Origin: a virus
Length of the DNA: 28,873 bases
Strand: one strand, 5' to 3'
IMG/VR virus record: IMGVR_UViG_3300025671_000371
Location: 1 to 28,873 of that record
The notes beneath the pieces were generated by a model. It was not told where the DNA came from, made no database searches, and saw only the letters and a program-made list of their open reading frames with translations. Position numbers and translations under genes: made by a program. This document shows positions 8,732 through 17,769 of the stretch, one piece after another; position 1 is the first letter of the stretch, and each line of letters opens with the position of its first letter.

Positions 8732-9565
8732 TTATTCAGTACAGCTAATTTGTACAATGCCTTCATCGTCAATAGCGATTGCGCCAGCAGAGAACATTGA
8801 GCTTACTAAGAAAGATGTTTTCTCAGGAACATAGTTCACCTCGGTTTTTTGCGCCATTGATTCTGCATAACCTAAAGAATCTTTATGCCATGCATAGCAA
8901 GTACGAGTTGATGGTTTTGGAAGTCCACCTTCATCACGATCACCCATGGTTAGGATGTTGAAGCCCATGAACGTATTGATTTCGCCACGAACAAGAGCTT
9001 TCACAGCAGCATAGTCTGCGCTGGTGATTTCGGTTTCGCCTAATAGAGCATCTAGTTGGCTAGCGTGCATGAGAAGGTATCTGTCCTCAGAAGGAACATT
9101 GTTCTCATTAAGTGCTTTAGCAGCAGCACGTAGTTTTTCGATGTTCATGTTTGAGCCTGCGCCACCTACAGAAGTAGCAACAGTTGAAGGGCTAGCAGCA
9201 GCATCAAGTGCATCTATGCAGATTTGATCCATTCTTCTAGCGATTGATTTTGATACTACCTCAACGAGTTCTCTCCTCTCATCAAAGTTGATGTGAGACT
9301 GATGGAAAATATCGCTGTATTCTGCAGCAATATAATCTGTCAATGAAAGAGTGACTTGTGAGTAAGTAACGTTTAGAGGTGTTACATCAGTTTGTGGAAC
9401 ACGAACGCTAGCAACACCTTTGCCAATTTTAGGGAATTTGACGGTGTTACCTTGTACATTTGAGCGAGCGCGCATTGTGCCACGTAATAATGCTTCACCT
9501 TGATACGCTTGTTTAACTTCTGATTCAAACAGAGTTACAAACGCTGTGCTTACATTTTGAGCCAT
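8732..9565 (-). CDS. Major capsid protein, HK97-type fold (277 aa)
   Basis: The sequence shows the usual layout of a T7/HK97-type coat protein: an N-terminal arm (TLFESEVKQAYQGEALLRG), a beta-rich E-loop-like segment (NTVKFPKIGKGVASVRVP), a long spine helix (ERRELVEVVSKSIARRMDQ), and A- and P-domain segments ending with ITSADYAAVKALVRGE, GFNIL and FSAGAIAIDDEGIVQI. It assembles the icosahedral head on the scaffold encoded just upstream. It is shorter than T7 gp10A (345 residues). I see no second, frameshifted product. A GGAGAG ribosome site lies 5 bases before ATG. The gene is preceded by an unusually long, structured leader. Confidence 0.93.
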   Translation of the reverse strand: MAQNVSTAFVTLFESEVKQAYQGEALLRGTMRARSNVQGNTVKFPKIGKGVASVRVPQTDVTPLNVTYSQVTLSLTDYIAAEYSDIFHQSHINFDERRELVEVVSKSIARRMDQICIDALDAAASPSTVATSVGGAGSNMNIEKLRAAAKALNENNVPSEDRYLLMHASQLDALLGETEITSADYAAVKALVRGEINTFMGFNILTMGDRDEGGLPKPSTRTCYAWHKDSLGYAESMAQKTEVNYVPEKTSFLVSSMFSAGAIAIDDEGIVQISCTE

Positions 9566-9610
9566 TGGTACTCTCCAATAAAATTAAAAATAAAAATTAA
9601 CTTATCGCAC

Positions 9611-16539: not shown

Positions 16540-16803
16540 TTAGAATGGAATATCGTCCTCGAATGGATCTGACTCTTGCGGTGAAGCAACAGGCTTTTCT
16601 GCACTGGCAGGTTTAGGTTTTTCTAATTTAAATTTTGCAAGTGGGCGATTAGCTGGATCGTCAGCATTACGTCTCCAACCAACAAACTTATAATCCACAC
16701 CGTCAATGTTAACGGTAGCATTAAAGTCAGGTTGCTCTGGTCTTTCTTTGTATTTGTTTTCCCAAATAACGATTTGATTTGTGTTGTCGTATTGTTCAGG
16801 CAT
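16540..16803 (-). CDS. Small protein with SSB-like acidic C-terminal tip (87 aa)
   Basis: The protein ends DPFEDDIPF, essentially the C-terminal tip of bacterial SSB (DDDIPF) that recruits host replication and repair proteins. The N-terminal 60 residues are compact and beta-rich (IVIWENKYKERPEQPDFNATVNIDGVDYKFVG split over several strands), much shorter than the OB fold of E. coli SSB. A Lys/Pro/Ala-rich linker (LEKPKPASAEKP) separates the two parts, as in SSB. It may be a mini single-strand binding protein or a decoy for the SSB interactome. It lies between the initiator and the terminase and has an AAGGAG ribosome site. Confidence 0.7.
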   Translation of the reverse strand: MPEQYDNTNQIVIWENKYKERPEQPDFNATVNIDGVDYKFVGWRRNADDPANRPLAKFKLEKPKPASAEKPVASPQESDPFEDDIPF

Positions 16804-16941: not shown

Positions 16942-17769
16942 TTAAGCTTTAAGTTTGCGGGCTATGTCTTTGATTTTATTATCAAGCTTGGGGTTAGTCC
17001 CTGTCTTTAGTAGTTTATTCTCTATAGGTTTTTTAAAGTAGGCCAAGGTGTGAGCGATTGGTCTACGGTTATCTCTGCAATACTTGTAGTGATCGTTAAG
17101 GATATTTAAAAAGACTTCATGCGTTAGGCCTTGCGCTATCCATGAGCGCATCAACTGCTCATCTTTTAAATTGTAAGATCTTGGTTGTCCTAAAGTTTGA
17201 CCAAAGTTTTTAAACATGTTGCAAAACTTCCGGACTTCCCCGTCCGTCACACTATATATATTATTATTATATATATCGTTATTATCTCGTTTGTGTGATC
17301 CTATAGCGTCACTACCCCTGTGATCCCTAGGCGTCACACCCTCTTTATTCTCTGTGACATTCAGAGCGTCACACCCTGTTAGTTCTCTTTCCATCTCTGA
17401 CAACTCGATAAGTTCCCGAGCGTTAAGGGTTCCTCGTGCGTCGTCCTCTGTAATGATCCCCTCTTCATAGATAACTCGATAGGTTGTTGTAGGTTGATCT
17501 TTAAATTGTTTTTTAACGCGGGTAACCAGTCCAACATCTCTAAGCTTTTTTAAGTTCCTGTTTATTGTTTCTCGAGTCTTACCCAGTTCATCCGCCAGTC
17601 TTTGTTGGCTAACCCAAGTGCGGCCTATTCTGTCCGTATAGCTGCACATAACGACCAAGGTATTAAATGCTGTTTGCGGGATTTTTTGCGCAGATAACAA
17701 CTTAATAGCCCTAATCGGCACTATCGAGTATTTGCGTAAGTCCTTGTTTCTTAAGGGTTTAAATTCCAT
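16942..17769 (-). CDS. Replication initiator, lambda O-like, winged helix (275 aa)
   Basis: Residues about 31-100 form a typical winged-helix DNA-binding domain: helix 1 (AFNTLVVMCSYTD), then WVSQQRLADELGKTRETINRNLKKLRDVGLVTRV and a wing ending TTTYRVIYEE. A hydrophilic, Asn/Asp-rich linker follows (about 131-175), then a helical C-terminal domain with KDEQLMRSWIAQGLTHEVF and AYFKKPIENKLL, typical of phage initiators that recruit the host helicase or loader. In lambda O the N-terminal domain binds iterons inside its own gene; here the linker codons contain such repeats (17294-17378). The gene is read divergently from the plus-strand cluster. Initiator role inferred with fair confidence. Confidence 0.8.
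   Translation of the reverse strand: MEFKPLRNKDLRKYSIVPIRAIKLLSAQKIPQTAFNTLVVMCSYTDRIGRTWVSQQRLADELGKTRETINRNLKKLRDVGLVTRVKKQFKDQPTTTYRVIYEEGIITEDDARGTLNARELIELSEMERELTGCDALNVTENKEGVTPRDHRGSDAIGSHKRDNNDIYNNNIYSVTDGEVRKFCNMFKNFGQTLGQPRSYNLKDEQLMRSWIAQGLTHEVFLNILNDHYKYCRDNRRPIAHTLAYFKKPIENKLLKTGTNPKLDNKIKDIARKLKA
17244..17378. other. Putative replication origin: iterons plus AT-rich segment
   Basis: Inside the initiator gene, two exactly adjacent 25-bp units (17294-17318 and 17319-17343) each read TGTGATCC, four bases, GCGTCAC. A third related unit, TGTGAC-N7-GCGTCAC, lies at 17353-17378. Each unit is a dyad with GTGA and TCAC arms. A further CCGTCACAC occurs at 17244-17252, and a pure A/T tract of 24 bp (17253-17276), able to form an 8-bp hairpin, lies between it and the units. 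Iterons beside an AT-rich tract within an initiator gene is the arrangement of the lambda origin. Repeats are seen; origin function is inferred. Confidence 0.65.

Follow-up and report, generated by a model that had tools for sequence, protein, structure and literature searches.

A putative replication origin within a phage HTH_36 initiator gene and a CRP-like recognition helix that may read its iterons

The window, that is, the whole stretch of DNA analysed, is the 28,873-base linear virus record IMGVR_UViG_3300025671_000371, a fragment that carries a gene for a 275-aa replication initiator at 16942-17769 on the minus strand. By Pfam, PHROG, AlphaFold, and Foldseek, the protein is divided into an HTH_36 winged helix, a disordered linker, and a helical C-terminal domain. 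Its match to PF13730 (HTH_36; E=3e-9, 36.8 bits) lies above the curated cut-off of 25, and PHROG families phrog_270, 678, and 428 (replication initiation, O-like, and DnaD-like loader families) are matched at E values of 2e-10 to 2e-8. The first AlphaFold model was poor (mean pLDDT 52.6) and gave no matches in a fold search; a second model (m74dc115778e3), for which 12 diverse alignment rows were used, resolved the winged helix with pLDDT values mostly of 61-87. The winged-helix DNA-binding domain covers residues about 19-99 (17473-17715, minus strand), with predicted helices at 32-42, 55-62, and 66-78 and strands at 82-87 and 94-99; residues 103-172 (17254-17463, minus strand), with pLDDT below 50, form the disordered linker, and the C-terminal domain is helical from residue 176 on. 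With the second model, the top Foldseek matches were DnaD and RepA-type winged-helix initiators (PDB 9a5c, 4pql, 4pt7, and 5kbj) at borderline E values of 3e-3 to 3e-2, and comparison with solved structures by sequence gave no significant match. Likewise, no relatives of the window protein were recovered by tblastn in named phages or by peptide patterns in bacterial genomes. The next gene downstream is SSB-like (16540-16803, minus strand; PHROG single-strand DNA binding protein, E=8e-10) and is followed by a terminase gene. Judged by its family matches, the product of 16942-17769 is an HTH_36, O-like phage replication initiator.

The linker codons hold an array of units of the form TGTGA-N10/11-TCACA, which is placed about 400-525 nt into the initiator gene, where it separates the regions encoding the DNA-binding and C-terminal domains. 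In coding-strand order, iteron 1 (TGTGACGCTCTGAATGTCACA, N11; 17353-17373), iteron 2 (TGTGACGCCTAGGGATCACA, N10; 17319-17338), and iteron 3 (AGTGACGCTATAGGATCACA, N10; 17294-17313), all on the minus strand, are followed by a 24-bp pure A/T run (17253-17276), which lies next to the iterons, towards the 3' end of the gene, and is a candidate DNA unwinding element, and then, on the far side of this run, by a lone half-site (GTGTGACGG; 17244-17252, minus strand). The three iterons are kept in relatives, as is the GTGTGAC of the lone half-site in all aligned relatives; the run is A/T-rich in relatives, its sequence itself not being strictly kept. Neighbouring units are separated by N5 or N14. The first-pass annotation had described two exactly adjacent 25-bp units, a diverged third, and a 24-bp A/T tract with a fourth half-site beyond it, and the adjacent pair (iterons 2 and 3, exactly 25 bp apart), the tract, and the fourth half-site are all borne out; the third unit (iteron 1) is indeed diverged, and is also displaced, with an offset of 34-35 bp and N11 in place of N10. 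The placement of the units in different reading frames holds as well, with the refinement that only two of the three frames occur: GTGACGC starts at codon positions 2, 1, 2, and 1, and the third frame would read its TGA as a stop. That the array can sit in the linker at all would be attributable to the tolerance of the linker for the iteron-encoded peptides CDA/VTP. Besides the run at the array, the window contains a single A/T run of 20 nt or more, likewise 24 bp of pure A/T (9577-9600), just outside an open frame that ends at 9565 and with no TGTGA sites near.

Exact TGTGA/TCACA words number six in 140 nt at the array and at most two elsewhere in the window, and one of 300 whole-window dinucleotide shuffles reached six words. 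When synonymous codons were swapped among the gene's own positions, leaving the protein unchanged, the motif count (observed 9; permuted mean 2.0) was reproduced in 0/5000 permutations, and the protein sequence thus does not force the half-sites. Relatives were found in IMG/VR at 95-100% and at 67% protein identity, and in the aligned relatives no other DNA of the region varies as little as the half-sites. Codons for the same amino acid are identical between the window and L007 at 22/22 positions in half-sites vs 172/233 elsewhere (p=0.003), and between the window and L009 at 15/17 vs 86/163 (p=0.005). The comparison of homologues proposed in the first-pass annotation, which held the repeats to be a DNA-level signal, accordingly came out in favour of that claim: in relatives of 67% identity the half-sites are unchanged or almost unchanged, while other synonymous sites diverge. 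These comparisons indicate that the iteron units are preserved as DNA, beyond the needs of the protein. Repeats that arose at the peptide level or by replication slippage, with no function as DNA, would be in keeping with the tolerance of disordered linkers for repeats and with the plain codon repeats that some of them carry (e.g., EPVK in L092); nevertheless, this account is highly improbable given units in two frames, half-sites that resist synonymous change and are never recreated by synonymous permutation, and inverted half-sites, which are not made by simple slippage.

The locus had been annotated as a lambda-type origin, a description that suits the layout (winged helix, linker iterons, A/T tract, and C-terminal domain) and fails for the protein family, which is HTH_36 and not Phage_rep_O. 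In the lambda origin within gene O, dyad iterons similarly separate the DNA-binding from the C-terminal domain within the initiator gene, occur in more than one codon frame, and are followed by A/T-rich DNA. The lambda iterons (ATCCCTCAAAACGAGGGA, 18 bp, four copies, several codon frames) differ from those of the window in sequence, PF04492 (Phage_rep_O) has no match in the window protein, and the HTH_36 profile built in this work does not match lambda O. P, the helicase-loader gene, lies next to O in lambda; among the window genes searched, no P-like helicase-loader gene was found, either after the initiator or elsewhere, the record being a linear fragment. Lambda O forms dimers, which assemble into the O-some when they occupy neighbouring iterons (PMC3985674). 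The dyad shape of the window units alone is no proof of a dimer, because the spacing between facing half-sites (TGTGA-to-TCACA), N10/N11 in the window, ranges over N7-N11 across lineages; back-to-back half-sites are mostly N4-N6 apart across lineages, with one N14 in the window clade.

The recognition helix of the window initiator starts with RETINR (residues 66-71; 17557-17574, minus strand), as compared with RETVGR in E. coli CRP, and a profile of HTH_36 domains (A5) aligns RETINR in register with REMVGR of the CRP-family protein Vfr (E about 2e-4), which makes the segment the counterpart of R180-E181-T-V-G-R185 in CRP. E. coli CRP reads TGTGA by contacts from R180 to the first G and from R185 and E181 to the second G:C pair, in a site of the form TGTGA-N6-TCACA (PMC11253593). 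The initiator appears to read its sites by the same three residues, in which case the protein's own sequence predicts its target. Because the spacing of the units differs from the fixed N6 of CRP, the likeness is one of half-site reading and not of dimer geometry. CRP/FNR regulators (E. coli CRP, Vfr) resemble the window initiator in having RExxxR at the recognition-helix start and TGTGA half-sites, and are set apart by a cyclic-nucleotide domain, N6 spacing, and a role in transcription, in contrast to the N10/N11 spacing, repeated array, and replication context of the initiator, in which Pfam matched no cyclic-nucleotide-binding domain. With no such domain and with a different spacing, the window initiator is, on sequence criteria, not a CRP. 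Use of the array by the host's own CRP/FNR-type regulator is conceivable insofar as TGTGA/TCACA are CRP half-sites; however, CRP sites have N6 (PMC11253593), a spacing found neither within the units (N10/N11) nor between them (N5 or N14), and from lineage to lineage the sites go with the helix of the phage protein itself, as set out below, so this explanation is given very little credence.

The pairing of helix and half-site was surveyed from both directions. Viral contigs were scanned by the iteron DNA pattern alone, and bacterial genomes were scanned with a stricter version. Besides close kin, the first scan returned the HTH_36 initiators L016, L025, and the truncated L018, and the second gave L039 (Fulvimarina endophytica) and L035, whose initiator gene is that of L025; the array lies within the linker each time. 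The domains found in this manner are 25-38% alike, and all intact ones share R-E-T-[IV]-N-R at the recognition-helix start, such that 3/3 intact lineages chosen by DNA pattern carry the rare helix. Other pattern matches were set aside: L011, L021, L024, and L026 lack a long open frame spanning the array, and L036-L038 are repeats or chance occurrences in unrelated genes. GTGACG arrays in initiator-like genes of L010/L013 and L019 were excluded for their different fold; their GTGACG-N-CGTCAC units (L010:4595-4626, L013:1170-1201, and L019:4236-4264) lie in genes resembling non-HTH_36 initiators and suggest further convergence on this half-site.

In the opposite direction, protein similarity was used to gather HTH_36 genes of phages, plasmids, and genomes, which were scored without reference to TGTGA. 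Among 77 HTH_36 lineages, a linker with at least five TGTGA half-sites was found in 6/6 RExxxR lineages vs 0/71 others; the overall Fisher value (4e-9) overstates the association, given that 4/6 of the RExxxR lineages are not blind (the window, and L016, L025, and L039, which were found by DNA pattern). The two RExxxR lineages chosen by protein are the L131 clade (a Devosia plasmid and kin), found by protein search only, with TRETVNR or TRETINR and six half-sites, and L181, fetched with patterns outside the helix, with PRETVNR and five half-sites; for this pair, the comparison stands at 2/2 vs 0/71, or about 4e-4 by counting. L092 was rejected as a TGTGA lineage, as three of its four words fall within the plain EPVK codon repeats, and the half-sites of RR-type helices (GGTGAA and the like) were not used because their register is ambiguous. 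Linker repeats are frequent among HTH_36 initiators, each lineage having its own (GGGTGCAA in L032, GGGCGAAC in L052, TGGTGAAC in L072, and ATTCGTCA in L071), and helices other than RExxxR pair with other linker repeats, e.g., in L032, L033, L052, L071, and L072. The HTH_36/O-like initiators of Pseudomonas phage JBD68, Caudovirus D_HF5_3, and Arthrobacter phages likewise resemble the window initiator in domain family, in gene layout, and, in many cases, in having linker repeats, and differ from it in repeat sequence (e.g., GGGTGCAA in JBD68) and in helices without RExxxR. By its domain and architecture, the window initiator belongs with the HTH_36 phage initiators.

When the helix columns were left out of the tree, RExxxR required five changes, and grouping its lineages as one clade was rejected (p-AU 0.004), although this tree is weakly resolved, with 72 columns and many open forks. 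The RExxxR/TGTGA pairing therefore probably arose repeatedly. A further case is provided by L051, sister to L016 (63% over the domain), which has the helix RKTVNY and in which three of about five half-sites are TGTAAC, the others being TGTCAC and TGTGAT; its repeats were not singled out by a blind repeat finder (z 1.3). In a 1984 report, replacement of Glu181 of CAP by Lys, Leu, or Val reportedly changed the preference at the same base pair that is altered in TGTAAC. As a natural specificity switch paralleling these mutants, L051, being one sequence, is suggestive only. Taken more broadly, the survey is somewhat in favour of an HTH_36 recognition code, whereby a few helix residues would fix the half-site of the same gene, unrelated lineages would repeatedly reach the CRP solution, and natural variants such as L051 would switch it.

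The array is thus best explained as a phage replication origin inside the initiator gene, lambda-like in layout and with CRP-style recognition of its iterons, a reading that is considered very probable. In the scheme that we infer for physical binding, strand opening, helicase loading, and origin activity, initiator protomers would bind the TGTGA half-sites of the three dyad units via the winged helix, in which R66 would make a CRP-type contact to the G of TG, and E67 together with R71 to the second G:C pair. Once bound, the protomers would gather over the 120-bp array and, as lambda O does, help to open the adjoining 24-bp A/T run by straining it, whereupon the C-terminal domain, DnaD-like by weak fold match, may help to load the helicase. 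A marked A/T run beside the array is found only in the window clade, the other RExxxR lineages being without one. If the initiator instead bound its own gene to limit its synthesis, as an autoregulatory operator or transcription roadblock, with the origin elsewhere, the presumed reader would again be the gene's own product, and intragenic sites could block transcription. Such a role in place of an origin is unlikely, however, as the array sits about 400-525 nt into the gene and has no counterpart in the rest of the window, the region upstream of the gene included, and as an origin better accounts for the A/T run that separates iteron 3 from half-site 4 and for the linker iterons seen across the initiator family; operator and origin roles can also coexist. 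A GC-skew switch had been suggested as a check on the origin, and a minimum is indeed present near 17.5 kb; as it coincides with divergent transcription, it is not independent evidence and was left uncounted.

The layout of linker iterons beside an A/T tract is that already known from lambda; what is new here is the RETINR helix, as in CRP, and the association of RExxxR with TGTGA among HTH_36 lineages. A literature search, which missed most subscription journals, turned up no paper that connects the iterons of phage initiators with a recognition helix of CRP type. For the majority of uncultured phages, to our knowledge, the origin has not been mapped. Should the initiator gene contain its own sites and the helix predict their half-sites, sequence alone would suffice to read both the origin and the specificity of the initiator. 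Sites and reader in one gene also move together, and the system, if true, would be a clean natural case of one DNA-recognition solution evolved repeatedly for replication rather than transcription, with the target encoded in the reader's own gene.

Two further observations were made among the collected lineages. In the Lichenicola cladoniae plasmid (L137), the locus 1201-1500 gives an HTH_36 coding match where the PLSDB table annotates no gene. Finally, AACC units (often AACCRTCA) recur in tandem every 10-12 nt on the coding strand downstream of the linker iterons in L027, L032, L181, L183, L192, L195, and others, and are absent from the window clade. AACC-N5..9-AACC occurs in 28/77 lineages (shuffled mean 4.3, maximum 9) and on the other strand in 2/77, and all three codon frames are represented; these units may be a single-strand or loading element, or may in part reflect a peptide motif.
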